A program made the position numbers and the translations under genes. This document shows positions 10,075 through 28,152 of a DNA stretch of 64,000 nt, in pieces. The notes under the pieces were generated by a model. The model made no database searches. It saw only the letters and a program-made list of their open reading frames with translations, and was not told the DNA's origin. Position 1 is the stretch's first letter. Every line of letters begins with the position of its first letter. This DNA is from a virus: the IMG/VR virus record IMGVR_UViG_3300042987_002978, positions 40,852-104,851 of that record; one strand, written 5' to 3'.

Positions 10075-13000
10075 TTACTCGGTATCCGGCTCTTTCATGT
10101 GCAGCCACATCGCCGCGGCAATGGCAAGAACCGTCGATATTCCGGCAATTTTCTGAATAGGCCCGGACAAAGTTAAATAAACGACAAGTGAGCCCGCAAT
10201 CGTGAAGCCCATGTTCATGAGCCCGTACGAGAACTTCTTGAAGAATGCTTTCCAGTCCATCACTTTCACCCCATTTACGTACTTAAAGATGCTGATGTTC
10301 TTTATCCAATCTAAACCATCGCCGGCAATCTCGCCTTGAGGCTCTTCCTCGTCATCCTCTCGTCTAGCCGCAGTGTCCTGTCGCGTGCTCGGCGCACTTG
10401 GGCCAGACGATGAAGGTGAGCCACCCGACATTCCGCCAGTCGCTGTCATTGAAACGGCAGCAGCAGACGTGAGCAGTCCCGCTGCGATGACCGTGCGGCG
10501 CTCTCCGACGCTGATGTTCTGGTTCAACATCTTGTATCCGTCAAATGCGCCTTGGAACAAGTCCACGACATCCTCAAAGACTTCACGGACATCAGAGGGT
10601 GCTTCCTGGACCGCGTCCACGATTTGCTCGGCAACTTCTTCTGTAAGTTGCTCTGCCTCGACGCTCTCAAATACCTGTGCGGCCTGTTCCGTACTGACCG
10701 ACTCAAGAACGGCAGGATTGGAGGCAAGAGTTGCTGCTACTTCTTGACTGACCCCAGCCTCGATTACAGCGGCCACCACGGCCACGATTTGTTCTTTCTG
10801 CTCTTCTGTCAAGGACTTGGGGTCTTCCACTTTGGTGATTGCCTCGATTACCTCGGCCACCACCTCAGCAACCCTGTCTTCGGGGACGGAATCAATCAGG
10901 TCAGCCACGACTTCTGCCGTCTCTTCGGGGGAGGCGTCCTCCAGTTCGGAAACTGCCTCTTCTACGGCTTCAGAAACCTCAGACTCTGGCTCTGGTACCG
11001 TTGTTTCTGGTGAGACAGGTTCTGGGTCTTCTTGCTCTTGGGGCAACACTGTTGTTTCAGTTGGCTGTTCTTCTTGCTCTGGCTCTACGGGGTCCTCTGG
11101 AAGAGTCGTATCTGGAGAAACATCAGCAGGGGTAGACGGTGTTGTTGTTTCGGGCTCTTCGACAGGCTCTGGTGTCGTGGTGGTCGTTGAATCGGTCTCT
11201 TCGGGAATGGTCGTCTCAACAGGCTCAGGCTGAGTGGTCGTCGTCGTCTCAGGCTCAGGCTCAGGCTCGGTCGTTGTTGTCGGAGGAACAGTCGTTATCG
11301 GGGGAGGCGCTTCCGTCGTCGTTGGAGCGGGGGCTTGGGTCGTAGTCGTCTGAGGAGCAGGGGCGACAGTCGTCGTAGTAGTGCTGGTCGTGGTAGTAGT
11401 CGTGGTACTGGTCGTCGTGGTCGTGGTGGTCGTCGAAGTAGTGGGGTCAACCACCGTCACGTCGACAGTCGAGTACGGCCCGTATGTGCATGAGCCTTGG
11501 CCTTCGCCAACACATGCAGCGCTTCCGGCGCGAACCTTGAATCTGACAGGTCCGTATCCGGTGGTTCCCGGAAATTGATACGAACCGACCACATAGGCGG
11601 TATTCGTGGCGTATGTCCACACACCCCAGCCGCCAGACTCGACATTATTGTTCAAGTCGAACCAACTGACGTCGTACATGTGCGGTGAAAGATTGCCTGA
11701 GGCTGGGGCATCCCAATCAAGAGAAACGCTTCCGTCTTGGTTGGCCGAACCTGTCAAGTTTTGAACTTGATTAAAATACGGGACAACCGTAGTCGTAGTT
11801 GTAGTCGTAGTGGTCGTAGTGGTTGTTGTGGTTGTTGTAAAAGTTGGATTCGGGTCGACAACGCTCGCCACCGCAGTTGAATTGCTGTAGCGGAGCATGT
11901 CAACAAAGTAAATGTCTCCTTCTGCCGGAAGGGAGAATGACGAAATAATCTTGCCGTTTCCGTTGAAGTAAATCTCTTTGTAATAGCCAGGTGCTTGGCA
12001 GGTCGAGCATCCTGCTGTCAATACCGAGTTTCCAATGGTAAATGTTGTGGTTGTTCCGTCTGAATATGTCACAGTTCCAGTTGCATCACCGTTCTTCGCC
12101 CCGACACGGAAGTAAAAACTTCTTGGAGTTGCCGATGATGGAAGTGTGAACAGCGCTGACTGCGACGGGTTGCCGGCATACACGGCAACACCGGTCGTGC
12201 CGTAACCGTTGTTCATGTTTGCGTAATACCAACCTGATTGATTGCTTGACGTGAGCGCACTTCCATTCACTGAAACCGTCACTCCAGTTGTCGGTCCTGG
12301 ACCCTCAAAATCCTCCGTTGTTTCCGTTCCGGTGCCAGGAGAGGGAACAGTCGTGCTCGTAGTGGTCGTTGTCGTTGGCGCAGGCGCAGTCACGGTGATG
12401 TTCATTGATTCGCTTACCACGATGCTTGACGGCATGTTGTATTCAGCGACATAACCTCCGACGCTTGACCAGGAATCGGGAAGGTCGTTCCAGCAGTTGC
12501 CGCCACTCCATTTGGTGACAGCGGCATCCTCGTTGCCTGAGTTGTTGGGCTCGCCACCGCACCACTTGGCGTAGTTCCCGCCTTGTGCAGACCCGTTGCT
12601 AACGCCGCGCCAGACAAGCGTTCCTTGTTCAGGAGAGCCGTCGTATGGGTCAAGAACCCAGTCACCTTCGACTGCCCTGTCGGAAAGGGCTATCCAGATG
12701 TTGTACGCACCTTGGATTTTGCTGAGGACGAACTCGTGTTCCGCGTCGGATGTGATGGTCACCAAATAGCCATTTACTCCGCTGATTGTTCTTGTCCGCG
12801 CCGCTGTCCTTGCATTCAAGTAACTGATGTTCCCTTGGACAAATTCATACAAATGGCCGTTAAAAAATGCAGTGTTGTTGACTTTCTCAGATACCTCAAT
12901 AGTCAATGTTGCGGAACCAGCCGTCGCGCCAGAATCCAGAGTCATCGCATCAAGCGCCGTATTGATGTTCGTTTGATTGCCAGTGAAATTGATTTGCGAA

Positions 13001-13308
13001 GTGTTGGTCCAAGACGTGTACCCAGACTCAAGCGTCAATCCAGTCGTCGTCGGCAAGTTGACCTTCGCAGCAGTTGAGCCAGAAACAGTGATGCTCACCA
13101 AAAGATTGGCGGATTCACTAAAGCCAGAAACTTGAAAATCATCACTGAGGGCAAGCCCGTTTTGGCCGCTGACAGTTGTTATGTCAGAAGGTGCCGCAAC
13201 GGACTCTCCCGCAGCGTTCGCTGTTTTCAGAGGTGTGCCAAAACTGAAAAGCATGCACATGAAACACGTCAACCAAATCAGTGCTTCGAACGGTCTGCGC
13301 CTCAACAT
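10075..13308 (-). CDS. Secreted, membrane-anchored C-type lectin surface protein
   Basis: Encodes 1077 residues. Order: signal peptide (1-32, ending ANA); cadherin-like beta region (35-145); C-type lectin fold (about 148-291) with WIALSD, the mannose-type sugar/calcium triad EPN (253-255), WND (273-275) and cysteines 250/272; beta-sandwich domain (330-485); poly-Thr run; fibronectin III-like domain (510-625); Thr/Pro/Glu-rich stalk; acidic helical region (about 780-940); hydrophobic segment near 960; and a C-terminal membrane helix (about 1030-1060) with a short tail. It looks built for display on the infected cell, or possibly the virion. Actinobacterial surface proteins use the same linkers. 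Neighbours are glycosyltransferases. Confidence 0.85.
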   Translation of the reverse strand: MLRRRPFEALIWLTCFMCMLFSFGTPLKTANAAGESVAAPSDITTVSGQNGLALSDDFQVSGFSESANLLVSITVSGSTAAKVNLPTTTGLTLESGYTSWTNTSQINFTGNQTNINTALDAMTLDSGATAGSATLTIEVSEKVNNTAFFNGHLYEFVQGNISYLNARTAARTRTISGVNGYLVTITSDAEHEFVLSKIQGAYNIWIALSDRAVEGDWVLDPYDGSPEQGTLVWRGVSNGSAQGGNYAKWCGGEPNNSGNEDAAVTKWSGGNCWNDLPDSWSSVGGYVAEYNMPSSIVVSESMNITVTAPAPTTTTTTSTTVPSPGTGTETTEDFEGPGPTTGVTVSVNGSALTSSNQSGWYYANMNNGYGTTGVAVYAGNPSQSALFTLPSSATPRSFYFRVGAKNGDATGTVTYSDGTTTTFTIGNSVLTAGCSTCQAPGYYKEIYFNGNGKIISSFSLPAEGDIYFVDMLRYSNSTAVASVVDPNPTFTTTTTTTTTTTTTTTTTVVPYFNQVQNLTGSANQDGSVSLDWDAPASGNLSPHMYDVSWFDLNNNVESGGWGVWTYATNTAYVVGSYQFPGTTGYGPVRFKVRAGSAACVGEGQGSCTYGPYSTVDVTVVDPTTSTTTTTTTTSTTTTTTTSTTTTTVAPAPQTTTTQAPAPTTTEAPPPITTVPPTTTTEPEPEPETTTTTQPEPVETTIPEETDSTTTTTPEPVEEPETTTPSTPADVSPDTTLPEDPVEPEQEEQPTETTVLPQEQEDPEPVSPETTVPEPESEVSEAVEEAVSELEDASPEETAEVVADLIDSVPEDRVAEVVAEVIEAITKVEDPKSLTEEQKEQIVAVVAAVIEAGVSQEVAATLASNPAVLESVSTEQAAQVFESVEAEQLTEEVAEQIVDAVQEAPSDVREVFEDVVDLFQGAFDGYKMLNQNISVGERRTVIAAGLLTSAAAVSMTATGGMSGGSPSSSGPSAPSTRQDTAARREDDEEEPQGEIAGDGLDWIKNISIFKYVNGVKVMDWKAFFKKFSYGLMNMGFTIAGSLVVYLTLSGPIQKIAGISTVLAIAAAMWLHMKEPDTE

Positions 13309-13312
13309 AGCA

Positions 13313-13361
13313 GGAAGAATAAATCTTCCGGCTAGATAGTGTTTATAATTGCGCGATTATA
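13313..13361 (-). promoter_or_regulatory. Promoter and leader hairpin of lectin gene
   Basis: A perfect TATAAT (minus strand, 13361-13356) lies about 48 bases before the lectin start and overlaps the glycosyltransferase stop. A TTTAAC-like -35 is possible. The leader contains GGAAGA-TTTAT-TCTTCC immediately before the ATG, which would place the purine-rich ribosome site in a hairpin. Confidence 0.45.
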
Positions 13362-14469
13362 GTTTCGCTATCTTGTTAAAGACTTCTATCCACTGCGACG
13401 CTGTTTGTTTGATGGAAAACTGTTTGGACACTATCGTTCTTGCTCTTCTTGACTCTTCTTCTCGTTTAGCAAGATTCAGGAACGAATCAAGGTGATTTTC
13501 CCATTCTTGTTGTGATGAGGCGACTCGGCCCACCCCAGCATTGGCAAGGTACTCGTACTCCGGAAGATTTGATGCGACAAAAGGAATTCCTGCCGCCGCA
13601 TACTCAAGACCTTTTATGAATGACTTGGCTCGATTGAACGGTATGTCGTTTAGCGGGACGATTCCGATATCAAAATTTGCGTAGACATTGGGCAAGTCGT
13701 AGAGCGGCACCATGGGACTGACGGAGCACAAATCGGGGTTTATCTTGAGCCTCAGATAGGCAGGACCAGCCCAAGGGATGTGTCCTGCATGGTGGAAACG
13801 GGCATCGCGACTGGTCAGATATTCGTTGAAGAACGGCGATATCTGCTCAAGGTCCATGGACCGCCACGGCGTGGCACCGAGCCACCCAATTATCGGCTTG
13901 CGCTTCACCGTCCTGAATCGAGTCCATCTTTCTATGTCAATGGCGTTGCGGACCATGAATATGGGCTTCTTGGGGTATTTCTTTTTGTAGTACTGCTCTA
14001 TGAATGGCGTAGAGCAGATTAGGGCGTCGGCGTTCTTGATTATCTCCGCGTAAATCTCCCTGTTGCTTTCTTTGGATTTTGCAGGGTCGGTCGACCTATA
14101 GGCGTGGTTTGTTTCGTGCAGTTCTTCGTGAAGGTCGTCGATATCTACCACGATTTTTTGACCGATGGCTTTTGCTTTCGGCATCGCCTCAAGGGTCTGT
14201 GCCGACATGATTACCTTGAGAACGATTATTCCGTGCCTGTGCGAAAACGTGTCGTTCAGCCGCTTGATGACGAACTTACCGTTTGGCTTTATGGACAAGA
14301 ACCCGAAACTTGCGTGGATTCCGGCAAGATTCAACTGCTGTGCCGGAAGTATGCACCTGTACCACGTGCAGCCGTTCGGTACGTATTGGTCTTCGTCTCT
14401 TCCCCAATCGAGCGAAGCAAACCCGACGCTGAACGTAAGTCCTTCGTCTTTGAAAACGTGGCGATTCAT
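13357..14469 (-). CDS. Glycosyltransferase, GT4-like (copy 2)
   Basis: Encodes 370 residues from ATG 14469, which overlaps the stop of the preceding gene as ATGA. It shows a two-domain GT-B pattern: an N-terminal half with VVDIDDLHEELHETNHAY and a C-terminal half with IIGWLGATPWRS and the donor-site-like KGLEYAAAGIPFVAS. It is clearly paralogous to the adjacent gene (shared NGCTWYRCILPA, ALICSTPF, FMVRN and DIGIVPLN), so the pair is a tandem duplication. Acceptor and sugar are unknown; host glycan, virion protein or modified DNA are all possible. Confidence 0.85.
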   Translation of the reverse strand: MNRHVFKDEGLTFSVGFASLDWGRDEDQYVPNGCTWYRCILPAQQLNLAGIHASFGFLSIKPNGKFVIKRLNDTFSHRHGIIVLKVIMSAQTLEAMPKAKAIGQKIVVDIDDLHEELHETNHAYRSTDPAKSKESNREIYAEIIKNADALICSTPFIEQYYKKKYPKKPIFMVRNAIDIERWTRFRTVKRKPIIGWLGATPWRSMDLEQISPFFNEYLTSRDARFHHAGHIPWAGPAYLRLKINPDLCSVSPMVPLYDLPNVYANFDIGIVPLNDIPFNRAKSFIKGLEYAAAGIPFVASNLPEYEYLANAGVGRVASSQQEWENHLDSFLNLAKREEESRRARTIVSKQFSIKQTASQWIEVFNKIAKL

Positions 14470-15572
14470 GTTATGTCCATGATGCTGGTGTACACGTGTT
14501 CCCATTGCGATGCGAAAGAATCGATTGAGAAGTGCTCGGTTATTATTTCTTTGTTCAACTCCGACTCGTCGACGCGCATGTTGTAATCCATCAGTTCGTT
14601 GAAATGCGCAATCCACTCTTCGTCCGTTTTCGCTATTCTTCCCACTCCGGCGTCCGCCAGGTATTGATATTCTGGAGTATGGGACGCGACGAACGGGATT
14701 CCTGCGGCGGCATATTCAAGGCCTTTCAAATATGACTTTGCGTGGTTGAATTCGACGTTGTTCAAAGGGACTATGCCGATATCGATGTTCTTGTAGAGTT
14801 CCGGAAGTTGCGTCATAGGAAGCATCGGCGTGGTGCTTACTTGCTTGTCGTCGATTCCAAGAAGCGAGGCGGCGCTGTCCGCCGCGGCTATGTGGCCGGA
14901 GTGGTGAAAAGTCGTGTTCTGCGATATCAGGTATTCCTTGAAGAAGGACGACAACTGCTCTAAGTCTCTTGAACGCCACGGAGTCGCGCCAACCCAACCG
15001 ATTACAGGTACGGAACGTCTGGTGTTGCGCTTGGGCCACCGACCGATGTCGATGGAGTTTCTCACCATGAACACAGGCTTTGTAGGGTGCTTTTTTGAAT
15101 AAAAGTCGTACAGGAACGGCGTCGAGCAAATCAGGGCATCGGCCATTTCAATGACTTGAAAATAGATATCGCGATTGTTGTCCTTGTGAAGTTCCGGGTC
15201 GGTCTGCTGACGAGCCCTGTTCGTCTCGGGAAGATTGTCGAACCAGTCGTCTATATCAACGACCACACGGACCTTGTTCGCTTTTGCTATTTGTACCGCT
15301 ATGAGGTTTGCGGCGTGCATCGGCAGTTTGAACACCAGCATTTTGTGACCCGAATAGATACCTTCCGTCTTGTACAGAGGTGCACGTACGCGAACGCCCA
15401 CCTTGCCGTCGGCGACCGATATGGTTCCGATTTGGCAGGCATGATTACGTCGAATCATTGCCATTGCCGGAAGAATGCAGCGATACCAAGTGCAGCCGTT
15501 GGGAAAAGACAGATTCTGGACTTGAGACCAGTCCTGAGAGATGAACCCGATGCTGAGCGGCGTGGTTGGCAC
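14466..15572 (-). CDS. Glycosyltransferase, GT4-like (copy 1)
   Basis: Encodes 368 residues. It starts MPTTPLSIGFISQDWSQ and shares the GT-B layout of its neighbour: VVDIDDWFDNLPETNRA in the first domain, VIGWVGATPWRSRDLEQ between domains and KGLEYAAAGIPFVASHTPEY in the donor-binding domain. It is translationally coupled to copy 2. It opens a minus-strand cluster downstream of two oxygenase-like genes, suggesting a joint modification pathway. Confidence 0.85.
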   Translation of the reverse strand: MPTTPLSIGFISQDWSQVQNLSFPNGCTWYRCILPAMAMIRRNHACQIGTISVADGKVGVRVRAPLYKTEGIYSGHKMLVFKLPMHAANLIAVQIAKANKVRVVVDIDDWFDNLPETNRARQQTDPELHKDNNRDIYFQVIEMADALICSTPFLYDFYSKKHPTKPVFMVRNSIDIGRWPKRNTRRSVPVIGWVGATPWRSRDLEQLSSFFKEYLISQNTTFHHSGHIAAADSAASLLGIDDKQVSTTPMLPMTQLPELYKNIDIGIVPLNNVEFNHAKSYLKGLEYAAAGIPFVASHTPEYQYLADAGVGRIAKTDEEWIAHFNELMDYNMRVDESELNKEIITEHFSIDSFASQWEHVYTSIMDIT

Positions 15573-15621
15573 GCCTATACGTTAGCGAAAATACTTGCTC
15601 AGCACCCGCAGATTATGTGTT

Positions 15622-16209
15622 TTATAGGGGCACCCAGTGGTCAAGCGAATTCAAAGATTTTTGTATGCTGCCGTATGAATGTATGTCAAACGCAATCGTT
15701 ATTCGTGGTTCATCTTTTAGGGGCTTGGATGTTTTGTGGAAATTATCGTTTGACTTTGCAAACACCAGCAACCCGTCCTTTGAGTCAACTTTTATGCGTT
15801 GACCATCATCGAACTTGTACTGAGTATTTCCTGCACTTGACTTGACACAAAAAAATCCGTGGTACGAATGCTTGCTGCCATAGTGTCTGTGCCAATCAAG
15901 TTTTTGTTTGTCTCTGTAAACATTCACCCAGCCTTGAATGTAGTATTTTTTGGACACATCAATGTCTGCCGAATAAAAGGTATCTCTTATCGCACAGTAG
16001 AGAGAATTAAGTTCTACGGACGGATAGCAAAAAACGTTGTAAAAGTCTGCCACCCGCGTGCCGAACGGGGTGTCTTCATCAATTTTGTAGTTTTGTGGTT
16101 TGTCTGAAAGCGTGCTGGCAACCAACTCTTCTATCTCCAGACATTGTTCAGAAAGTTCTCGCAGGTCAATTTCTTCCAGCAGAACAGAAACTATTTTTCT
16201 TCTTGCCAT
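15622..16209 (-). CDS. 2-oxoglutarate/Fe(II) oxygenase-like protein
   Basis: Encodes 195 residues from ATG 16209, leaving a ten-base gap to the previous gene; a TTG at 16245 is the alternative. The C-terminal half resembles a double-stranded beta-helix oxygenase: QGWVNVYRDKQKLDWHRHYG (first iron-binding segment), SYHGFFCVKSSAG, distal FHKTSK and RITIAFDI carrying the Arg for 2-oxoglutarate. The usual HxD reads HRH here, so the acid ligand is not certain. It would hydroxylate a small molecule, sugar, nucleotide or protein. Confidence 0.6.
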   Translation of the reverse strand: MARRKIVSVLLEEIDLRELSEQCLEIEELVASTLSDKPQNYKIDEDTPFGTRVADFYNVFCYPSVELNSLYCAIRDTFYSADIDVSKKYYIQGWVNVYRDKQKLDWHRHYGSKHSYHGFFCVKSSAGNTQYKFDDGQRIKVDSKDGLLVFAKSNDNFHKTSKPLKDEPRITIAFDIHSYGSIQKSLNSLDHWVPL

Positions 16210-16219
16210 ATGCTCAGTC

Positions 16220-16741
16220 TCAGAAATAGTTAAAGTTGATAACAATTCTGTATTTCGTGTTCGTGTGCGTTGTCCCAGCGTGGCTCATTGTTGCCGGGAA
16301 TACAACGACTCTATTGGCAACACTTTCTACTTTTGTGCCATCCTCGAACAATGTATATCCGTCATTCGTGTTTAAGTAGTAAATGGCAGTCTTCATTGCT
16401 GACATGACCTCAGGTTTTCGCAGCATCGTAGGATAAGCAATGTCCGTGTGCATGTCTGATACTTCTATGGTCGGTGTTGATGGTCTGAAATTTGCTTTTG
16501 CCCTGACAAGTACGTCCGACTTCAAATTGCGCAGAAGTGGGGCCAGCACAGAGTAGTAGGGGCTCGTCTGACTGTTGTCCCTGTAGAAAATGTGGGTGAA
16601 TTGAAAATCGTTCAGCGAGCGACTGGGTTTGTCTTTGTAGACTACGCTGTTGTTGTAATGCCAATTAAATTTCACGTCGGTCAGCGTCGTAAATATAGCC
16701 GAGTGTTCTTCCTTTTTGAGGAATTCGTCAATGATTTCCAC
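16220..16741 (-). CDS. 2-oxoglutarate/Fe(II) oxygenase
   Basis: Encodes 173 residues from GTG 16741. Longer versions would run into the divergent plus-strand gene. It has a clear prolyl-4-hydroxylase-like iron site: MHTDIAY (HxD), AIYYLNTNDGYTLFEDG, then FPATMSHAGTTHT (distal His) and YRIVINFNYF with the 2-oxoglutarate Arg. It lies ten bases before a second oxygenase-like gene and opposite a third. The substrate is unknown. A TATACT box seven bases before the GTG suggests a leaderless message. Confidence 0.75.
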   Translation of the reverse strand: MEIIDEFLKKEEHSAIFTTLTDVKFNWHYNNSVVYKDKPSRSLNDFQFTHIFYRDNSQTSPYYSVLAPLLRNLKSDVLVRAKANFRPSTPTIEVSDMHTDIAYPTMLRKPEVMSAMKTAIYYLNTNDGYTLFEDGTKVESVANRVVVFPATMSHAGTTHTNTKYRIVINFNYF

Positions 16742-16748
16742 GCTGCCA

Positions 16749-16770
16749 AGTATAGTAGAATGATACGGAG
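16749..16770. promoter_or_regulatory. Divergent overlapping promoter
   Basis: Between two divergent oxygenase genes the sequence AGTATAGT supplies TATAGT (16751-16756) on the plus strand and TATACT (16754-16749) on the minus strand. The plus gene then has GGAG (16767-16770) six bases before its ATG. The two directions should compete for polymerase. Confidence 0.5.
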
Positions 16771-16776
16771 AAAAAT

Positions 16777-17451
16777 ATGTTGATTCAGCCGTACGCAATC
16801 TACGACAATTTCTTGGATGACCCAAGCGCAGTAATCAGGTCTCTTCGCTCGCAAAGGTATTACGTGCAGGGACTACCGGATACGGGACAAGTGTCGAACA
16901 ATGACATACCTCTGGAAATCAACTACGGAGACGAAAGCGTCACCGGAGACCCGAGGTTTGGTTCGCCCTACTGGAAGGGCTACAGGACCAGGGACCTGCA
17001 AGAAATAGACATGGACAGTTACAACATAATCATGAGCAAGTTGCTTGAGCACATATTCGGCTCGTTCACATTGGCACAGATTGAGTTTGACGCCGAAACA
17101 CATTTCCACCTCATGACCAAAGACTTTGTTTTTACTGATACGTGGTTCCACTCCGACGCCAGCAAATTCATTGCCGGCGTTTTGTACCTGGCAGAAGACC
17201 CTGGTCCGAACAGTGGGACGGCGCTGATGATAAACGGTGAAAAAGTCTCAATAGAAAACAAGTTCAACAGGTTGATTGTCTATAACGCTGGCTTGACGCA
17301 CAGCGCAGAAGGCTGTTTCGGGGACTCGCTTGAGAACTGCAGGGCTACGTTTGTATTTTTTATCCGGAATATCTTGCTGTTCAACGACATATTGGAACAG
17401 CAGGAACCGACATCAATGGGCAATCAGCACAATTACATAGGCGGATACTGA
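16777..17451 (+). CDS. DUF6445-like / 2OG-Fe(II) oxygenase-superfamily protein
   Basis: Encodes 224 residues. Seen: an N-terminal YAIYDNFLDDPSAVIRSLRS typical of short phage and bacterial oxygenase-like proteins, DTWFHSDASKF as the HxD site, a VLYLAEDPGPNSGTAL strand, and GLTHSAEGCFGDSLENCRATFVFFI as the distal His and Arg. It is predicted to be cytoplasmic. It lies seven bases before the carbamoyltransferase on the same strand, so the two form a small operon and probably act on the same molecule. Confidence 0.7.
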   Translation: MLIQPYAIYDNFLDDPSAVIRSLRSQRYYVQGLPDTGQVSNNDIPLEINYGDESVTGDPRFGSPYWKGYRTRDLQEIDMDSYNIIMSKLLEHIFGSFTLAQIEFDAETHFHLMTKDFVFTDTWFHSDASKFIAGVLYLAEDPGPNSGTALMINGEKVSIENKFNRLIVYNAGLTHSAEGCFGDSLENCRATFVFFIRNILLFNDILEQQEPTSMGNQHNYIGGY

Positions 17452-17458
17452 CAGGCCA

Positions 17459-19165
17459 ATGAGAATCGTAGGAATAAGTACCGCGCACGATAGTTCTGTT
17501 GCCTCATATTGCGACGGCGAAATTGAGTTCTTCATGAAAGAAGAGCGGATTACCAAGCGCAAGAGGGACAAGAACCCATTCGCAGCCATGGTGGAAACGG
17601 CCAAATTCTTGGGCAACAAGAAAATCGACGCAGTCGCGGTATCTGCACCGCACAACACTGATGTCGACAGTTACTTGTTCGCGATAATCGATGCCGCGAC
17701 AAAGATTTTCAAGACAAACAACATATACAAACTCTTCAACAGCCATCACTTGTGCCATGCTTCGTTGGCTTTTTACAACAGTGGATTTGACAATGCTGTC
17801 GTGGTAATCGTGGACAGAAACGGCTCGAACAATCCGAATTCAAATATGCTGCTTTTCGAGTCCGAAACGGTTTTCACCGCGGAATACCCAAGTTCATTCA
17901 AGGAAATAAAGAAGAACTACTGGCTTGCGCAGCGCGGGCAAAGTTCTGATGCGTTCCTGTTGGAACTCGTTCCCAGAGAGAAAACAAAGAGACCAGGATG
18001 TGAAATATCGTACGAGAGTTTGTACGGCATCACCAAGGTCTACGAAACTGCGACCATTCTCATAGGCGAAGGAATTCTGGAAAACGGCAAGACGATGGGA
18101 CTTGCTGCATACGGGAACGAAAACCAAGATTTTCCCAATCTGTTTCTTGACAACGGCTGTCCCAACGACTCCCTGTTCTCCTATGCGATGAGCAGTCGTG
18201 ACAATACGCTTGCTGCGATATATAAAGAATACGCAGGCAAGATGACCAAAACGGTCGACAAAAACGACTATCAGTTTTATGCGGACTATGCGTATCAAGT
18301 TCAAAAGCAAACACAAGAACAGGTGGCAAAACTCATTGAGACGGCGGTACAGCGAACAGGCATAAAGAACGTTTGCGTCTCTGGTGGTTACGGTTTGAAC
18401 GTTGTTGCCAACGGCTACTACATATCGAAGTTCCCAGACGTCAATTTCTTCTTTGAGCCGCTCGCCGATGACACCGGGAACAGCATTGGCGCGGCAATGC
18501 TTGTTTATAGAGAATTGTCAAAAGACAAAACCATACGACCGTTGAAGTCGACTTTCTTCAACGGCCACGAGCCGCATATTTCAGCAGAAGAATTTGACAG
18601 GCACCCGATTTCATATGGCAAGGCAACCGTCAACGATGTTGCAAGATTGTTGGCGGACAACGCAAAACTTGCCATGTTTGCCGGCAAGGCGGAGGGCGGT
18701 CCGAGAGCGCTCGGGAACAGGTCGATTTTGTTTTACCCAAATCTTGCCGACTCAAAAGACATCGTAAATCGAATTAAGAAACGAGAGTGGTACAGGCCGT
18801 TTGCGGCATGTGTCTTGAAAGAAGATGCCTGGGAATACTTTGACATGATGTCGCTGACCGAAAGCCCGTACATGACCGTTTCTTTCGACTGCCGCGCCAT
18901 GACAAAAGAATTGTTTCCGGGGATTGTCCATGTTGACAATTCGTGCAGAGTGCAGACGGTAGGCGAGGAGAACAAGAACCTACATTCCTTGTTGACGGCA
19001 ATAAAAGAACTGACTGGTCACGGGTTGTTGTTGAATACAAGTTTCAATTTGGCCGGCAGCCCGCTGGTTGAAACTATTGACGATGCGATAAAGGTCATGA
19101 TGGAATCAGAACTTGAATACATCTGGATTCCAGAACACCAGACGCTGCTAGGCAAGCAGCGATAG
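17459..19165 (+). CDS. NodU/TobZ-type O-carbamoyltransferase
   Basis: Encodes 568 residues. The N-terminal Kae1-like domain carries MRIVGISTAHDSS, the metal site HHLCHASLAF (about residues 97-106) and the VDRNGSN turn. The C-terminal domain carries AEGGPRALGNRSIL, REWYRPFAACVL and LLLNTSFN. The family transfers carbamoyl from carbamoyl-phosphate via carbamoyl-AMP to hydroxyl groups on sugars or antibiotics. Some phage members have been linked to carbamoylated hydroxymethyl-cytosine. Here an oxygenase gene precedes it, which could supply the hydroxyl. It ends convergently with a minus-strand gene. Confidence 0.9.
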   Translation: MRIVGISTAHDSSVASYCDGEIEFFMKEERITKRKRDKNPFAAMVETAKFLGNKKIDAVAVSAPHNTDVDSYLFAIIDAATKIFKTNNIYKLFNSHHLCHASLAFYNSGFDNAVVVIVDRNGSNNPNSNMLLFESETVFTAEYPSSFKEIKKNYWLAQRGQSSDAFLLELVPREKTKRPGCEISYESLYGITKVYETATILIGEGILENGKTMGLAAYGNENQDFPNLFLDNGCPNDSLFSYAMSSRDNTLAAIYKEYAGKMTKTVDKNDYQFYADYAYQVQKQTQEQVAKLIETAVQRTGIKNVCVSGGYGLNVVANGYYISKFPDVNFFFEPLADDTGNSIGAAMLVYRELSKDKTIRPLKSTFFNGHEPHISAEEFDRHPISYGKATVNDVARLLADNAKLAMFAGKAEGGPRALGNRSILFYPNLADSKDIVNRIKKREWYRPFAACVLKEDAWEYFDMMSLTESPYMTVSFDCRAMTKELFPGIVHVDNSCRVQTVGEENKNLHSLLTAIKELTGHGLLLNTSFNLAGSPLVETIDDAIKVMMESELEYIWIPEHQTLLGKQR

Positions 19166-19178
19166 CCGCAAAGGCTAT
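19162..19178. terminator. Hairpin at convergent gene ends
   Basis: ATAGCC-GCAAA-GGCTAT overlaps the stop codons of the plus-strand carbamoyltransferase and the minus-strand gene facing it. It has a 6-bp stem and a weak T-rich flank. It may act as a modest bidirectional terminator. Confidence 0.4.
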
Positions 19179-19516
19179 TGATTGTTGGCCGTAAAATCTC
19201 CGGTCGTTTCGTCGTAAGTCCAATTTGGCTGGACGACGTTTTTCTGGGTCGCCTGCATGTGAACGACCTTCGGGTTGGCAGCAAGGGCAGCGGCGAGTTC
19301 TGCCGCGAGTTCTTTGTGCGCAACATGGACAGCACCGACAACCCCGTCGACGACAAGGGCAAAAAATTCATAGTCTTCTGGGTGCTCGGCAGAAGTACGC
19401 ACGGCAGGAACCTCGGAATCCACGGCATCCTGGTGATAACGAATCAACTCTTCAAGAGTCAAATTCTCGATTATCGCTCGCAGTTCTTGTTCTGTGCTCG
19501 AATCTAATGCTGCCAT
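19175..19516 (-). CDS. Hypothetical protein at end of fibre cassette
   Basis: Encodes 113 residues. It starts MAALDSSTEQELRAIIENLT; a helical first half precedes EDYEFFALVVDGVVGAVHVAH, and it ends with NWTYDETTGDFTANNQ. The last segment recalls the Trp-rich ends of the small proteins at 21456 and 24430, but identity is too low to call it a paralogue. Position suggests a virion-associated or fibre-accessory role. No family was recognised. Confidence 0.65.
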   Translation of the reverse strand: MAALDSSTEQELRAIIENLTLEELIRYHQDAVDSEVPAVRTSAEHPEDYEFFALVVDGVVGAVHVAHKELAAELAAALAANPKVVHMQATQKNVVQPNWTYDETTGDFTANNQ

Positions 19517-19538
19517 GTTGACCCCTTAATAAGGTACA

Positions 19539-19703
19539 TCACCATTTGCCGATTGGACATGAGGCCAATTTCAGGCGCGTTTTTACGCGCATGAAACACT
19601 TGCACTCTTTGCATTGGCCGGTCGGCTTGAAAAAGCGAGGACAGGCCTTGCATATGTCAAGCCGCTCTTCATGAAAAGGTCGAGATTGCGTTGACCCTGT
19701 CAT
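19539..19703 (-). CDS. 54-residue four-cysteine zinc-finger-like protein
   Basis: ATG at 19703 overlaps the upstream stop as ATGA; stop at 19539. The product starts MTGSTQSRPFHEERLD. Its core ICKACPRFF...CKECKCFMRVKTRL...CPIGKW has CxxC, CxxCxC and a final Cys, like the small DUF6171-type proteins I associate with phage tail-fibre regions. The cysteine pattern and clean overlap with its neighbour argue it is real. Probably zinc-binding; function unknown. Confidence 0.75.
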   Translation of the reverse strand: MTGSTQSRPFHEERLDICKACPRFFKPTGQCKECKCFMRVKTRLKLASCPIGKW

Positions 19704-20014
19704 TGTCCCTCTTCGGTGCCTTCAAGTGCATCAAGATATGCAGGCCATCTGTGGTTTTCAAAAATCCAAAGGCTTTGAGTCGCATTGATGTATGAATAAA
19801 TTTTTGTCGGAGGGGGATTGATGCCAGAGTCAGCGGCATCTAAAAATGCCTCGACCGCAGACCTCAATTCGCTTTTTACGTGCTCTTCAAGTGCTTCAAT
19901 GAGGCTTTCATCCTTCTCGCACAATTCAACAAGTGCGTCATCGTCAGAAAGAACGATGAACTCGCCATCGTGAATGATTACCGGACCGTTTGTTGTCGAA
20001 CGAATTTCAAACAT
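19700..20014 (-). CDS. Hypothetical acidic protein
   Basis: Encodes 104 residues: a beta-like start MFEIRSTTNGPVIIHDGEFIV, an acidic helical middle and a C-terminal YSYINATQSLWIFENHRWP. No family was recognised. AGGAA lies five bases upstream of the ATG, and a perfect TATAAT box is at 20046-20041 on the minus strand, so it probably has its own promoter. It is coupled to the zinc-finger-like gene downstream. Confidence 0.65.
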   Translation of the reverse strand: MFEIRSTTNGPVIIHDGEFIVLSDDDALVELCEKDESLIEALEEHVKSELRSAVEAFLDAADSGINPPPTKIYSYINATQSLWIFENHRWPAYLDALEGTEEGQ

Positions 20015-20040
20015 TTTTCCTGCCTTTAATAAGTTATTGC

Positions 20041-20046
20041 ATTATA
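20041..20046 (-). promoter_or_regulatory. -10 box upstream of accessory genes
   Basis: Perfect TATAAT on the minus strand, 27 bases before the ATG at 20014 and just after the Cys-rich gene. No convincing -35 is visible. Confidence 0.4.
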
Positions 20047-20063
20047 CCAAAATGGATGGGTTT

Positions 20064-20480
20064 TCAGCCGTTTTCTGTCGCGGCGTACGAGGGTGGATAG
20101 TTGCAAGAAGTGGATACCCTTGTGACAACGCTCGTGTTTGTTGGGCATGAATATGTCGTCGTATAGGTTGGGGAAGCCCCATAACCCCATTCTGGTCTGT
20201 GCAGGTTGGCGTTGTCACACGGTCCGCACCAGTTGGTGCAGTTACATCCACAACCTTGACCTGCTCCGATGCACCATCCACCGCAATTTGCGCCGCCAGA
20301 TGGGCAGTAACTGCCGCTTTGCCATGTCCACGCTGTTGCAGAATAATTCGCCGGGTAGTTGCAAGTCGTTCCGCTCAAAGAAACGATTGCCGTGTTGGTA
20401 TTGCAGGTATAGAACACGCTCCTGCGGGACAGGCCGAATCTCCTTGCCGAGCCGCCGCCCAACTTGTTTACGAATGGCAT
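20064..20480 (-). CDS. Cysteine-rich fibre-associated protein
   Basis: Encodes 138 residues with about 13 cysteines. Two copies of a T(S)xTCNYPxxYxAT motif, one mid-protein and one at the C-terminus, flank a dense region with PSGGANCGGWCIGAGQGC and NCTNWCGPCDN. The N-terminus MPFVNKLGGGSARRFGLSRRS resembles the leaders of the glycine-rich adhesin genes at 21816 and 22592. It is likely a disulfide- or metal-stabilised tip or surface protein. No known family was recognised. Confidence 0.7.
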   Translation of the reverse strand: MPFVNKLGGGSARRFGLSRRSVFYTCNTNTAIVSLSGTTCNYPANYSATAWTWQSGSYCPSGGANCGGWCIGAGQGCGCNCTNWCGPCDNANLHRPEWGYGASPTYTTTYSCPTNTSVVTRVSTSCNYPPSYAATENG

Positions 20481-20499
20481 AAGTCCCCTTGTTTAAATA

Positions 20500-21363
20500 T
20501 TAGGCGAATCGTGTCTGCGCGGCGAACACGGTGAATGTGGCAGCACCAGTCTTTACTGCGGTCATGGTGTACATATCCACCGAGTTGGCGTTTCCAGATG
20601 TCGGTGCGCCAGTAGAACCCTGCCATTCTGTCGTCACACCAGACGTCGTTCCGTTGATTTGAATCGATGTCGCGTAGTAGGGAGTCGCGCCGTTGGTGAC
20701 CATGAACGACGTGGTGGCCATTTCGCCAGTGGCGAGTTTGCTGTCCAACGTCGTGGAAGAATTCCAGCGCAGGTTGATGACAAAGTTGGCGGCCGCGTTC
20801 GACGTGTAGTAGGTGGTTCCGTTTGCGACATCAACCGCAATCGTTCCCGTTGCCGCAGTCGCAGAAATTGTGATTGGCTCGATGACCGATGTGGTCTTGA
20901 CGCTGGAGAAGGTAACTTCACTTGTCGTGCCTACGGCCTGACCAATGGCAATTGACGCAGAAGAGCCTTCGCCAGGAGTATGAGTGACAGTAACGCCCGT
21001 GCCGGCAACTACGTCAGCGACATAGTTTCCGGTTGTGTCGGTACCGAGAGCGACCGAATTGGCGGCAATCGAGGCGACACCGCCGCTTGTGATTGTCAGG
21101 TCTCCGCTTACCTTGCCAAACACGTACGTCGGGATTCTGCTTGCGTCCATTTTTCTATTGGCAGAAGCGCTAACGTCGTAAATTGGGATGTCGTCAGCGT
21201 CAACTATGTCGGCGTTGATGTCTACTGCGTTTGTAATGTCGATTCCGGCAAGGGCTGGGATGCCACTGAGCAGTCGCCAGGTGGTGCCGTCCCATTTCCA
21301 GGTTCGCTCATCGGCCACATACGTGTCATTTACCGATGGAGAGTTTGGGAAATCGATTGCCAT
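20500..21363 (-). CDS. Tail fibre protein, module A (copy 2)
   Basis: Encodes 287 residues. It shares its N-terminus with the gene at 23461 (FP-SPSVN-TY, then RTWKWDGTTWR) and its C-terminal block (TSNAAANFVINLR, SSTTLDSKLA, NGATPYY). Between these is one copy of the GTDTTGNYVADVVAGTGVT...EGSSASIAIGQ repeat that occurs six times in the giant fibre at 28153. Start is supported by TTGGAGG. It closes the second duplicated adhesin module. Confidence 0.8.
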   Translation of the reverse strand: MAIDFPNSPSVNDTYVADERTWKWDGTTWRLLSGIPALAGIDITNAVDINADIVDADDIPIYDVSASANRKMDASRIPTYVFGKVSGDLTITSGGVASIAANSVALGTDTTGNYVADVVAGTGVTVTHTPGEGSSASIAIGQAVGTTSEVTFSSVKTTSVIEPITISATAATGTIAVDVANGTTYYTSNAAANFVINLRWNSSTTLDSKLATGEMATTSFMVTNGATPYYATSIQINGTTSGVTTEWQGSTGAPTSGNANSVDMYTMTAVKTGAATFTVFAAQTRFA

Positions 21364-21455
21364 TGTTCGCCTCCAAGTGGTCCCTGTAATTATGACATAT
21401 CGACGGGGGGACTAGTTAGAAGGGAAAATCGCCCCTTGGTAATAAGGCGCAAAAA

Positions 21456-21806
21456 TCAGCCAGCGGAGACGGCGACCCATGAGGTCGTATCCTCATCCCA
21501 GCGGTATGTTTCCCCGTCGGTTGGATACGGCACCGGTGCCTGCCATCGACAGGTTGACTCGTCAAGAATCCATGAAGCAAAACGCTTAGGGATTATGAAT
21601 GCGTCTCTTTCCTGGTCATACACGCCACCGATAATTGCGTAGTTTTTCCTGAAAGAACCATTTTCGCAAGTTTCTTTCCAGGTTCCGGTCAGACCAAGAG
21701 AAGCGATAAACTGAAGGCCAATTTCTTCAGTTGGGGCATCTTCATCTGATACAAGAATGACATTGGTTACAAAATTATTTTCGTCAAGCGAAGCGTAGTA
21801 TTTCAT
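21456..21806 (-). CDS. Small conserved tail-cassette protein, module B (copy 2)
   Basis: Encodes 116 residues and is paralogous to 24430: both have VTNVI(L/V)VSD, EEIG, a GTWK motif, FRK-YA-IG, YD-ERDAFI-PK and a Trp-rich C-terminus (RWDEDTTSWV). I recall similar short proteins from fibre regions of aquatic phages. Function is unknown; a fibre-assembly helper or a virion accessory are both possible. Confidence 0.75.
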   Translation of the reverse strand: MKYYASLDENNFVTNVILVSDEDAPTEEIGLQFIASLGLTGTWKETCENGSFRKNYAIIGGVYDQERDAFIIPKRFASWILDESTCRWQAPVPYPTDGETYRWDEDTTSWVAVSAG

Positions 21807-21815
21807 GTCGTAATC

Positions 21816-22589
21816 CTACGGACGGAACCTTACGTAGACGATTCCAGAGCCGCCACTTTCGCCTCCGCTGCGCACTGCGCCGCCACCTGCCGACCAACGA
21901 GTTCCACCACCACCGCCACCAGAGTAACTTCCATTGCCAGGACCAGCACCGTTAGAACCGCCCGCACCGTTTCCACCGTTTCTTCCAGAGGTGCCGTTAC
22001 CGCCACCCATGCCGCCTTGCCCCAGCATCGGACCACCACCACCGCCGCCAGCACCACGATAAGTATGACCAGCCGGCTGACCGATGAAAGCCGAAATGTC
22101 GGTTCCGTTACCGCCATTTTGTCCTTGACCTCCACCGTTCGGGGAGCCACCACCGTCGTTACCGCCGCCACCGCCGCCGCCAGTTGAGTTGGTTTGTGAA
22201 CCAAATGTCGTAGTGCCACCATTGCCGCCGTTGCTACTAAGTGCGCCGCCACCGCCACCACCACCAATTGTGATGCTTTGATTTGATGTAAGAGTCAGAA
22301 GCAAACTTTGACGAACCTGTCCGCCACCGCCACCGCCGCCGCCGGCATCGCTACCTTCGTTGCAGCCACCTCCTCCTCCACCGCCGCCACACCATAAGAC
22401 ATCAAACTGCCCCGAGCGAGTGACGGTCAGGGTACCAGAACTGGTGAATGTCAATAAAGTATATGTCTGTCCGTCGACAGTTATGGATGAGGAACTACCA
22501 CCAGTGGCAGCGCCGTAAGGGTTGGGCACTGAGCGAAGAGAGCCAAACCCTCTTCCCGAAGAAGAACCGAATGTTCCAATAATAGGCAT
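21816..22589 (-). CDS. Glycine-rich adhesin-like protein, module C (copy 5)
   Basis: Encodes 257 residues. It starts MPIIGTFGSSSGRGFGSLRS, followed by a Ser/Thr-rich beta segment and a central region of glycine runs spaced by Asn, Ser and Thr, ending GGSGIVYVRFRP. Glycine-rich sequences of this kind can form polyglycine-II bundles like the adhesin of phage S16. It is predicted to be a distal receptor-binding tip. Unlike three paralogues it lacks the YHIYTF end. Confidence 0.75.
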   Translation of the reverse strand: MPIIGTFGSSSGRGFGSLRSVPNPYGAATGGSSSSITVDGQTYTLLTFTSSGTLTVTRSGQFDVLWCGGGGGGGGCNEGSDAGGGGGGGGQVRQSLLLTLTSNQSITIGGGGGGGALSSNGGNGGTTTFGSQTNSTGGGGGGGNDGGGSPNGGGQGQNGGNGTDISAFIGQPAGHTYRGAGGGGGGPMLGQGGMGGGNGTSGRNGGNGAGGSNGAGPGNGSYSGGGGGGTRWSAGGGAVRSGGESGGSGIVYVRFRP

Positions 22590-22591
22590 AG

Positions 22592-23452
22592 TTACACCAC
22601 CACCAAAGAGCCGCTGCCAGTAAACGTGTGAATTGTGTACGAGCCAGAAGTAGTTTTCGAGCCGCCAGTAATTGTGTAGGCACTTGCGCTTGAGGTCAAG
22701 TAGCGAACAATTACGATTCCGGAGCCGCCGCTTAAACCGCCGCCGCCGCCACCTCCACCGCCGCCAGTGTTTGCCGCTCCTACAGTTGCTCCGTTGCCAG
22801 CATCGTAATATCCACCGTTTCCACCACCACCCGCACCACCTGCTTGACTACTCGGGTCTTGACTGGCTCCACCACCACCACCGGCACGAGTTACAGAAGA
22901 GCCTGTTATGGAAGATGCCCTACCAGAGCCACCTCCACTTGTTCCTCCACCTGCAGCGGCACCACCTCCACCACCGGCTGCATCCGCACCGTTTCCGTTT
23001 CCACCACCATAACCTTGACTTGCAGTGCCGCCAAATCCGCCAGTTGCGCCTGAAGATGCACCGCCACCGCCGGAACCACCAGTACCACCGCCACCGCCGT
23101 TTCTACGACCGCCACCGCCACCCGTAGAAGTTATCGTATGAAAAACGGAGTTGGAACCGTTACCTCCTTCTGCACCACCTCCACCACCGACGGTGACCGT
23201 GTAAGTGCCGGCACCGAGAGAAAGAGCCGCTTCTGCGGCTGCGCCACCGCCCGAAGTTTCGCCGGAGACTGACGACCTATAACCACCTCCGCCACCTCCG
23301 CCGCCGTAAGCACCTATTCCTGTGTCGTTTCGGTTTCCACCGCCGCCACCGGCAACGACAAGATATTCAACGCTGAACAGCGGTCTTGCAAAGACTCGTA
23401 ATCCACCGAACCCTCTTGTTGAGGAAGAACAGAACGTTCCTGAAAGCGGCAT
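22592..23452 (-). CDS. Glycine-rich adhesin-like protein, module C (copy 4)
   Basis: Encodes 286 residues. The leader MPLSGTFCSSSTRGFGGLR matches that of copy 5. An EYLVVAGGGGG segment follows, then GYRSSVSGE, then glycine-run repeats, then LSGGSGIVIVRYLTSS and a C-terminal TTSGSYTIHTFTGSGSLVV. It shares the YLVIAGG, YR(S/T)SVSG and GSGIVIxR landmarks with the copies at 24846, 25847 and 26837. Two bases separate it from copy 5. Confidence 0.78.
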   Translation of the reverse strand: MPLSGTFCSSSTRGFGGLRVFARPLFSVEYLVVAGGGGGNRNDTGIGAYGGGGGGGGYRSSVSGETSGGGAAAEAALSLGAGTYTVTVGGGGGAEGGNGSNSVFHTITSTGGGGGRRNGGGGGTGGSGGGGASSGATGGFGGTASQGYGGGNGNGADAAGGGGGAAAGGGTSGGGSGRASSITGSSVTRAGGGGGASQDPSSQAGGAGGGGNGGYYDAGNGATVGAANTGGGGGGGGGGLSGGSGIVIVRYLTSSASAYTITGGSKTTSGSYTIHTFTGSGSLVVV

Positions 23453-23460
23453 AGTTATTC

Positions 23461-24426
23461 CTATGCGAACTTGGTCTGAGTCTCTAGCACCTGGTATGTC
23501 GGGGTTGCTGCGGTCTTGACAATCGTGAACGAGTAAACGTCAATCGACGAAGCGTTGCCTGCAGAAATTGCGGATGGAACCTTCGGAGTAACTGCCGACC
23601 CGTCAATCTGGATGACGTTCGGATAGTACGGAGTCGCTCCGTTCTGATTCATCCACACGACGGTTATCACGTCGCCTACCGCCAGTTTTGACGAAAGGGT
23701 CGTGCTTGAGTTGTAACGGAAGTTCAGCGTGTGGTTCGCCGTCGCGTTCGATGTGTAGAACCAAATCGACGATGTTGCAATGTCAATGTTGATGGTTCCA
23801 GTAGCGGCCGCGGCAACGACGTTTGCGCGCTCCTGAAGGCCCTGAACGATGAGTTCTTTCGTCAGGTTTGTGTGAGCACCGTTGATTGTCGGGCTCGTCA
23901 AGGTCTTGTTCGTCAGCGTGTCACTTGAGGATGTCGTAACGACGTTTACTCCCTCAATAGTGACGACTCCTGCCGCACTGCGGGCAAGCGTGGTGTCGTT
24001 GGCGTGGCCAAGTTCAATCGAGCCGACACCGAGAGGCGAGGTCGTTGAAGTGCCCAATTTTGAGATAGCGATGGCCGCTGCCGCATTGACATCAGCATCG
24101 ACAATCACGCCTGAAGCAATTGAAGTAACTCCGGAGGAATCAATGGTTACATCGCCAGATTCTGTAACAGAGGTGGGGACCCCAGAGGCGTTGTAAACGA
24201 TGATATTCCCAGCAGTGCTAGTAGCGAGTTTGGACAGTGCAATCGCTGCGGCTGCATTGATGTCCGCATTGACGATTGAGCCGTCGGCCAGTTCAGTCGA
24301 GCCGACCGAACCGGCACCGAGAGCACCGGTAACGATTTTCCACGAAGTGCCGTTCCACTGCCACGTGCGAGCGCCGTCAGTGTACGTCTGGTTGACAGAA
24401 GGACTTGATGGAAATGTTAACGGCAT
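23461..24426 (-). CDS. Tail fibre protein, module A (copy 1)
   Basis: Encodes 321 residues. It is paralogous to 20500 at both ends. The middle holds two repeats of the IVNADINAAAAIALSKL / IVDADVNAAAAIAISKL type, common in phage fibre shafts. It probably trimerises. It follows the module-B gene by three bases, in the same order as in the second module. Confidence 0.8.
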   Translation of the reverse strand: MPLTFPSSPSVNQTYTDGARTWQWNGTSWKIVTGALGAGSVGSTELADGSIVNADINAAAAIALSKLATSTAGNIIVYNASGVPTSVTESGDVTIDSSGVTSIASGVIVDADVNAAAAIAISKLGTSTTSPLGVGSIELGHANDTTLARSAAGVVTIEGVNVVTTSSSDTLTNKTLTSPTINGAHTNLTKELIVQGLQERANVVAAAATGTINIDIATSSIWFYTSNATANHTLNFRYNSSTTLSSKLAVGDVITVVWMNQNGATPYYPNVIQIDGSAVTPKVPSAISAGNASSIDVYSFTIVKTAATPTYQVLETQTKFA

Positions 24427-24429
24427 AAA

Positions 24430-24798
24430 TTACTCTCCTTGGGGTACGACTTCATCCCATTGAAGTTCTTCTTCGTTCCAGACCCAGAATCCTGTCTCTG
24501 GACGCGCAACCGGGGCTTCCCAGTCGCATGTTGTCTCGTTGAGAACCCAAGACGGGTACGGCTTCGGTGCGATGAATGCATCGCGCTCGGCATCATACGC
24601 ATAGCCGATTCCGGCATAACGCTTGCGGAAGTTGTTGTTGTACGAGGTTTGCTTCCAAGTGCCGCCGAGAAGATTCGTGCAGAAAGCCACACCGATTTCC
24701 TCACTGGCCGGAAAGTCTCCACCACCGCAATCGTTGTTGGATACGACGATTACCTGCGTCACGATGTTGTCCGAGTCAATTTGGGCAAAATGTGCCAT
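24430..24798 (-). CDS. Small conserved tail-cassette protein, module B (copy 1)
   Basis: Encodes 122 residues and is paralogous to 21456: IDSDNIVTQVIVVSNND, an EEIG segment, GGTWKQTSYNNNFRKRYAGIG, ERDAFIAPKPYPSWVLNETT and a tail ending WNEEELQWDEVVPQGE. It lies between glycine-rich genes and the module-A fibre. Function unknown. Confidence 0.75.
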   Translation of the reverse strand: MAHFAQIDSDNIVTQVIVVSNNDCGGGDFPASEEIGVAFCTNLLGGTWKQTSYNNNFRKRYAGIGYAYDAERDAFIAPKPYPSWVLNETTCDWEAPVARPETGFWVWNEEELQWDEVVPQGE

Positions 24799-24845
24799 GT
24801 TCTTGCTCTCCTATAGTGGTTGGCTCACATTATAGGCCATGGGCA

Positions 24846-25838
24846 TCAAAGAGTGATTGAACCCGAAGCGGTAAAAGTGTAGATATGGTAGCCGCCTGCG
24901 CCGCCATTGTACGTTGGCGAACCAGTGGTTGATGTTGCCGCCCCGTATGCAGATGTAGGCCATCGAACAATGACAACACCAGAACCACCCTGCCCACCGC
25001 TGCGCCATACCGCATCGTTGTTGAATAGTCCGCCACCACCGCCACCACCCGTGTTGCCGGTTCCTGCAGAGCCGTTGGCAGTGTGCGCTGCGCCGTTTCC
25101 GCCTCCGCCGTTTCCGCCTGCTCCGCCAGAACTGGCGGGTTGTTTTCCGGCGCATCCTCCACCGCCTCCACCGCGCACAACTGCGGACCCAGTGATTGAG
25201 GACGAGACGCCTGCGCCACCGGCACCACCAACACCGTTGATTGTGTTCGCAGCGTTACCGCCGACTGCGCCAGCGCCTCCACCACCACCGGCGGGATAGT
25301 CCTGCAATGCCGATGAACTTCCACCTGCATATCCTTGCCCTGTTGTGCCAGTTCCTGCACTGCCGCCTTCACCACCGCGACCACCACCGGAGCCACCGTT
25401 GCCTGCACTCACCGCTCCAGAACCACCACCGCCGCCGCCAGTTGCGGTTATCGTGGACAATACAGAGTTATTACCGTCGGTTCCTTTTACGTTTGCGTTT
25501 CCTCCGTAGGCACCACCTCCGCCTACCGTAACGGTGTGAGAAGTTGCGACGGCAAGAGCAAGTGTCGATTCTGCAGATGCTCCGCCTCCAGAGTTTTCTC
25601 CAGAAACTGAAGAACGATATCCGCCGGCACCACCGCCGCCGCCTTGTTCAAGTGCGCCTCCTCCGCCTCCACCGCCAGCGATGACCAGGTATTCAACCAG
25701 AACTGGTGTCATCGGCCAGTTCGATGCACCTTTTTCTTGTTGATGGCTTGCCAAACTCCACATACCCGACGCGACAGATGTAGAGATTGTCTGCTTGGGA
25801 CCGAGCCGCCCACCTTTTCTTTGTTTTTTGTTTGGCAT
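24846..25838 (-). CDS. Glycine-rich adhesin-like protein, module C (copy 3)
   Basis: Encodes 330 residues. The basic start MPNKKQRKGGRLGPKQT is followed by SGMWSLASHQQEKGASNWP, VEYLVIAGGGGGG, YRSSVSGENSG, a long run of glycine blocks and the C-terminal GSGVVIVRWP plus GGYHIYTFTASGSITL. Copies 1 to 3 share both ends while the glycine-rich interiors differ, as expected for receptor-binding diversification. Confidence 0.78.
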   Translation of the reverse strand: MPNKKQRKGGRLGPKQTISTSVASGMWSLASHQQEKGASNWPMTPVLVEYLVIAGGGGGGGALEQGGGGGAGGYRSSVSGENSGGGASAESTLALAVATSHTVTVGGGGAYGGNANVKGTDGNNSVLSTITATGGGGGGSGAVSAGNGGSGGGRGGEGGSAGTGTTGQGYAGGSSSALQDYPAGGGGGAGAVGGNAANTINGVGGAGGAGVSSSITGSAVVRGGGGGGCAGKQPASSGGAGGNGGGGNGAAHTANGSAGTGNTGGGGGGGLFNNDAVWRSGGQGGSGVVIVRWPTSAYGAATSTTGSPTYNGGAGGYHIYTFTASGSITL

Positions 25839-25846
25839 AGTTACCC

Positions 25847-26833: not shown

Positions 26834-26836
26834 ATA

Positions 26837-28143: not shown

Positions 28144-28152
28144 AATCTCTCC

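Follow-up and report, generated by a model that had tools for sequence, protein, structure and literature searches.

A 64,000-nucleotide stretch of viral DNA (hereafter the window; positions 40,852 to 104,851 of the 104,851-base IMG/VR record IMGVR_UViG_3300042987_002978, or G000:40852-104851) carries six intact, tightly abutting or overlapping open reading frames (ORFs) that encode two glycosyltransferases (GT_A and GT_B), three 2-oxoglutarate (2OG)-Fe(II) oxygenases (OX_C, OX_D and OX_E) and one NodU/TobZ-type carbamoyltransferase (CT). We propose, with a probability of about 0.55, that this cassette decorates the tail appendages of the virion. The proposal builds on the gene content, the catalytic residues, the PHD2-like fold computed for OX_D, the variability of the genomic slot, and the co-location of such genes elsewhere with fibre genes and with genes for Pro-rich or Gly-rich appendage proteins. 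A preliminary description of this DNA had already recognized a cassette of glycosyltransferases, oxygenases and a NodU/TobZ carbamoyltransferase; its gene content is confirmed, and its interpretation is partly supported. The range given there, 14466-19165, runs from GT_B to CT and omits GT_A. The cassette is laid out as follows:

13357-14469, minus strand: GT_A, GT4-like glycosyltransferase (GT-B fold family; phrog_7162 glycosyltransferase, E = 8e-36), without an obvious membrane segment
14466-15572, minus strand: GT_B, paralogue of GT_A (phrog_7162, E = 3e-32), with PF13692 above its cut-off
15622-16209, minus strand: OX_C, PF13759-like 2OG-Fe(II) oxygenase (phrog_2696, E = 2e-10)
16220-16741, minus strand: OX_D, prolyl-hydroxylase-like 2OG-Fe(II) oxygenase (phrog_274, E = 1e-47)
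16742-16776, no strand: 35-bp gap separating OX_D (start GTG at 16741) from the divergently oriented OX_E (start ATG at 16777)
16777-17451, plus strand: OX_E, DUF6445-like 2OG-Fe(II) oxygenase
17459-19165, plus strand: CT, NodU/TobZ/CmcH-type O-carbamoyltransferase with both domains (phrog_1601, E = 6e-130)

The phage looks like an actinobacterial siphovirus, with a WhiB-like gene (read by eye) and a tape-measure-like gene upstream. The best isolate matches of its capsid protein are Brevibacterium and Gordonia phages (~50%), and its hosts are probably freshwater actinobacteria. The record is possibly incomplete and may be a fragment. Judging by the ORF list, all likely genes of the late region (~4-48 kb) lie on the minus strand except OX_E and CT. 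OX_D and OX_E diverge, but a consensus scan of the 35-bp gap found no sigma-70-like site to stand for the single divergent promoter proposed earlier.

Predicted activities of the cassette proteins

GT_A and GT_B are 49% identical, and their genes share a 4-bp start/stop overlap. The group-1 glycosyltransferase domain PF13692 scored 28.7 in GT_B, above the cut-off of 27, and 23.6 in GT_A, below it.

The three oxygenase genes span 15622-17451, and their products gave weak Pfam matches to 2OG-Fe(II) oxygenase families. OX_D retains the ligand residues H-x-D...H...R in alignment, and its structural model (predicted local distance difference test score, pLDDT, 90.6) matched PHD2 best (Z 16.3, root-mean-square deviation 2.5 over 144 residues), with the P. 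putida prolyl 4-hydroxylase (P4H) at Z 15.0. Foldseek and a second structural comparison returned mostly prolyl hydroxylases and other double-stranded beta-helix (DSBH) enzymes; TET chains were not among the 50 matches listed, which does not exclude them. The oxygenase profile A6 matched P4H with E = 4e-18 and Tet-like chains more weakly (E ~1e-7). The model assigns OX_D a P4H-like DSBH fold, although similarity of fold does not establish a function. OX_D shares its predicted fold and ligand residues with P4H enzymes and PHD2, but is only ~19% identical to PHD2 and belongs to a tailed phage of prokaryotes. Phage records, cyanophage matches among them, annotate its family, phrog_274, as 'DNA endonuclease V'; by profile and model phrog_274 is a 2OG-Fe(II) oxygenase family, and the label looks wrong.

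OX_C has a variant ligand motif, H-x-H plus a distal His (H107, H109 and H158). In OX_E, residues H125, D127, H175 and R189 are invariant among 18 homologues and form the pattern H-x-D...H...R. Among the families considered for these oxygenases, prolyl hydroxylases fit OX_D, and DUF6445 (PF20043) is related to OX_E, which scored 17.9 bits, under the curated cut-off of 24, and is not filed as a member. A Tet_JBP (PF12851) search found no match in the record, but it matched no control genome either; the family was also absent from the listed Pfam matches. The sole PDB profile match of OX_E, DNA polymerase kappa (E ~0.005), was taken as chance.

In CT, both Carbam_trans_N and Carbam_trans_C are present (PF16861, E = 3.5e-53; PF02543, E = 1.5e-25), the catalytic and metal-site columns (HHxxH, Asp, Arg) are invariant in an eight-sequence alignment, and the protein aligns with TobZ across both domains (E = 4e-47). 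CT thus resembles TobZ, NodU, NovN and GdmN in its two domains and conserved His, Asp and Arg columns, and differs from them in lying in a phage late region with 2OG oxygenases.

A variable island beside appendage genes

Relatives of the phage, recruited via the capsid protein and the glycosyltransferases, match the window in nucleotide sequence at 3.3-11 kb and at 28.5-48 kb and lack such similarity at ~14.0-28.5 kb, although each anchored locus spans only part of the island. We conclude that the cassette lies in a variable island, with the main fibre gene on one side and the lysis and tail genes on the other:

14000-28500, no strand: variable island, without nucleotide match in the relatives' loci covering parts of it
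21456-21806, minus strand: small cluster-c19 protein; in the cassettes of L017, L019 and L023, members of c19 flank the Gly-rich genes
21816-27790, minus strand: Gly-rich appendage genes (21816, 22592, 24846, 25847, 26837) with an interleaved fibre-like gene (23461)

In relatives the same slot holds arrays of prolyl-hydroxylase-like 2OG oxygenases together with sulfotransferase, GT2, halogenase and DUF6065 genes. DUF6065 (PF19541) recurs in the oxygenase arrays of L110, L105, L343 and L369 (7 of 120 sampled genes).

The Gly-rich appendage proteins of the island are candidate substrates. Two of their genes were tested, and both match PF21722, a family also found in L017. This marine contig is the closest analogue of the cassette: a block in the order 2OG oxygenase, OX_E, CT converges there with the genes for one c19 protein and for two Gly_rich_2 (adhesin) proteins. 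The c19 proteins of the window and L017 have no Pfam match; they may be tail-assembly chaperones. In the relative G010, the gene order runs from the large fibre gene to an fn3-(PPFF)n protein, several 2OG genes, GT_B, GT_A and the lectin gene. In relative 3300020557_000008, too, the gene that follows the large fibre gene encodes an fn3-(PPFF)n protein, and comparable repeat proteins occur in L343 and L369, with oxygenase arrays adjoining.

Co-occurrence of glycosyltransferases, oxygenases and carbamoyltransferases

The three enzyme classes occur together in other phages, which bears out the earlier impression that the gene set looks like a tailoring pathway. With profiles A6-A8, themselves partly built from loci later counted, we detected oxygenases in 23 of 42 glycosyltransferase loci and 39 of 80 CT loci, as against 1 of 102 random loci and 0 of 79 capsid loci. 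Counts on repeat-protein records used the independent Pfam family PF13640, which was present in 27 of 30 (PPFF)n-repeat records, 8 of 30 Thr-rich records and 1 of 30 random records; its density was 154 genes in 1,073 kb of the (PPFF)n records and 1 in 1,628 kb of the random ones. In 12 records with 81 oxygenases in total, 56 had a Pro-repeat no more than 10 kb away, where 31.6 would be expected (p = 0.003).

A direct scan found no close relatives of CT; a query with an alignment did find CT loci, giving a set of 80 from IMG/VR plus cyanophage loci (88 in all for the next count). A GT9-like gene, so named from a PF01075 match (E = 0.003) under that family's cut-off and without a PDB match, is present in 47 of the 88, at position -1 in 39. 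In marine phages CT is often one gene away from this protein, with sugar-nucleotide genes and fibres close by. The clade of the window CT (26 rows) has 2OG neighbours in 16 rows and the GT9-like gene in none.

Proposed pathway and points against it

Because such islands lie between fibre and tail or lysis genes, beside Pro-rich or Gly-rich appendage genes, a tail-appendage protein of the virion is the best-supported target; of the three substrates entertained previously (a host glycan, a virion protein or a nucleotide), the nucleotide has lost ground. We infer the substrates, the order of reactions and the benefit as follows. The three oxygenases would hydroxylate residues in repetitive tail-appendage proteins, OX_D most likely acting on prolines. 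GT_B and GT_A would attach sugars to the new hydroxyls or to Ser/Thr, and CT, with carbamoyl phosphate as donor and carbamoyl-AMP as intermediate, would carbamoylate a hydroxyl of the transferred sugar. Characterized NodU/TobZ-type enzymes carbamoylate sugar or methylol hydroxyl groups; hence carbamoylation of the sugar as the last step is more likely than the order suggested at first, in which it preceded glycosylation. Decoration could alter adsorption, stability or host-glycan mimicry, and related phages may use the late-region slot to swap tailoring enzymes to suit their own appendages.

Besides the partial circularity of profiles A6-A8, several observations weigh against this proposal. 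In whole genomes, 9 of 27 CT genes lie within 5 kb of a PF13640 gene against 6.5 expected, a weak effect which implies that the link between 2OG genes and CT does not hold throughout. Of 25 loci in the window CT clade, just 5 have Gly-rich ORFs. The link to Pro-rich proteins is confounded by lineage, the 92 PPFF loci forming 8 clusters of which one holds 81, and the link of (VTPP)n repeats to oxygenases is weaker still (2OG genes in only 5 of 42 VTPP clusters). The neighbours of the window cassette are Gly-rich rather than Pro-rich, no Pro-rich protein lies beside OX_D in the window, and the phage's own (VTPP)n gene is ~17 kb off. The OX_C model is poor (pLDDT 72.4), and its profile matches are two uncharacterized structures. 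A profile search gave no PDB match for GT_A or GT_B, and no sugar-nucleotide biosynthesis genes were recognized here.

The (VTPP)n gene belongs to a locus of the same record upstream of the window. There, genes for a 2OG oxygenase and a GT61 glycosyltransferase come after the one for a tail protein (L006:15487-19476) that has long (PVT)n and (VTPP)n repeats; the locus includes L006:12506-13480 and L006:13476-14807. This is possibly a second decoration locus of the same phage.

Alternative explanations

The strongest competitor, which we judge unlikely but serious, is that a surface glycan or glycoprotein, whether of the host or encoded by the phage, is what the cassette modifies, blocking superinfection or changing adsorption. 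The candidate gene directly follows GT_A, in several relatives (43-94% identical) as well as in the window:

10075-13308, minus strand: secreted-looking lectin protein with a C-type lectin domain (PF00059, E = 6e-5)

By eye, this protein has an N-terminal signal-like segment, a Thr/Pro-rich stalk and a C-terminal hydrophobic segment. The stalk resembles those of O-glycosylated actinobacterial surface proteins, as judged from knowledge of such families, and the protein is a candidate alternative substrate of the glycosyltransferases. L126 also fits modification of a surface glycan, since it has a CT (49%) with GT_B and other glycosyltransferases and lacks a PF13640 oxygenase. However, the lectin gene is missing from the GT_B loci L127 and L141, whose neighbours are fibre or tail-like genes, and the oxygenase part of the cassette tracks appendage genes.

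We consider it improbable that the genes are metabolic or unrelated morons, with oxygenases that tune the 2-oxoglutarate or nitrogen status of the host and neighbours assembled by chance in a hotspot. A role in 2OG signalling or DNA repair has been proposed for cyanophage 2OG oxygenases (PMC3037559), and 2OG genes are plentiful across the genomes of cyanophages, where they cluster only weakly near CT; against this stand the strong effect of position (0 of 79 capsid loci versus 23 of 42 glycosyltransferase loci), the repetition of the 2OG-OX_E-CT block in L017, and the co-location of oxygenases with (PPFF)n genes.

DNA hypermodification, in which 5-hydroxymethylcytosine (5hmC) or another hydroxylated base would be carbamoylated and glycosylated against restriction, is the least probable account, and a remote one. 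Glycosyltransferases and 2OG oxygenases are generally known to act in TET-type phage pathways, and by inspection the window has a MazG-like gene (50036-50395). The MetaGPA study describes a 5hmC carbamoyltransferase of the same two-domain family from the phage fraction, but that enzyme co-occurs with thymidylate synthase (PF00303), whereas CTs in unmodified contigs stand beside group-1 glycosyltransferases (PMC8670742). The window CT lies, like the latter, with group-1 glycosyltransferases and fibre genes. A search for PF00303 (thymidylate synthase/dCMP hydroxymethylase) found no match in the record, itself maybe a fragment; the control of that search matched in 9 genomes. Nor was there a match across 48 CT-bearing records. 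These results weaken the parallel with carbamoylated hydroxymethylcytosine drawn earlier, as does the prolyl-hydroxylase-like fold predicted for OX_D.

Relation to known systems

The CT loci of the Kyanoviridae P-SSM2, S-SSM7, S-CAM3, S-CAM8 and Sf-FS3 also combine CT with fibre genes and with either 2OG oxygenases or sugar genes. They differ in that a GT9-like protein and heptose genes replace GT_A and GT_B (P-SSM2, S-SSM7, S-CAM3 and Sf-FS3), and their CTs form another clade, in myoviruses of another host. The cultured Synechococcus phage S-CREM1 (L095) is similar in having an island with a Gly-rich protein labelled collagen-like, a Trp halogenase and a run of genes annotated as 2OG oxygenases that includes an OX_E homologue, whereas CT, GT_A and GT_B are not annotated in that stretch.

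As to the role of phage 2OG oxygenases, the use of viral prolyl 4-hydroxylases has been called 'cryptic' (PMC9301287), and the Phold study, which finds EGLN3-like proteins to be widespread in marine phages, names no substrate for them (PMC12774648). One chlorovirus P4H was reported to be active on viral peptides (Eriksson 1999, as cited in PMC9301287). Co-location names the adjoining repetitive tail-appendage proteins as candidate substrates, which opens the question to experiment, with S-CREM1 as one cultured case. We tentatively suggest, at somewhat less than even odds, that aquatic tailed phages use exchangeable fibre-side islands to make appendage proteins that bear hydroxyl groups, sugars and additional decorations (carbamoyl, sulfate or halogen groups), a prokaryotic-virus counterpart of hydroxyproline-rich glycoproteins. 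If so, virions would carry appendage modifications invisible to sequence alone, with a bearing on adsorption and host range.

Two further observations concern related genes. A PF05118 aspartyl/asparaginyl beta-hydroxylase gene directly follows the major capsid gene at L145:8145-8708 (plus strand) and in other capsid-anchored loci; it is apparently missing from the window. In S-RIM44 and S-SCSM1 (L096 and L097), CT is split into two ORFs with that for the C-terminal domain first, and thymidylate synthase genes are close by, the one in S-RIM44 being ThyX.

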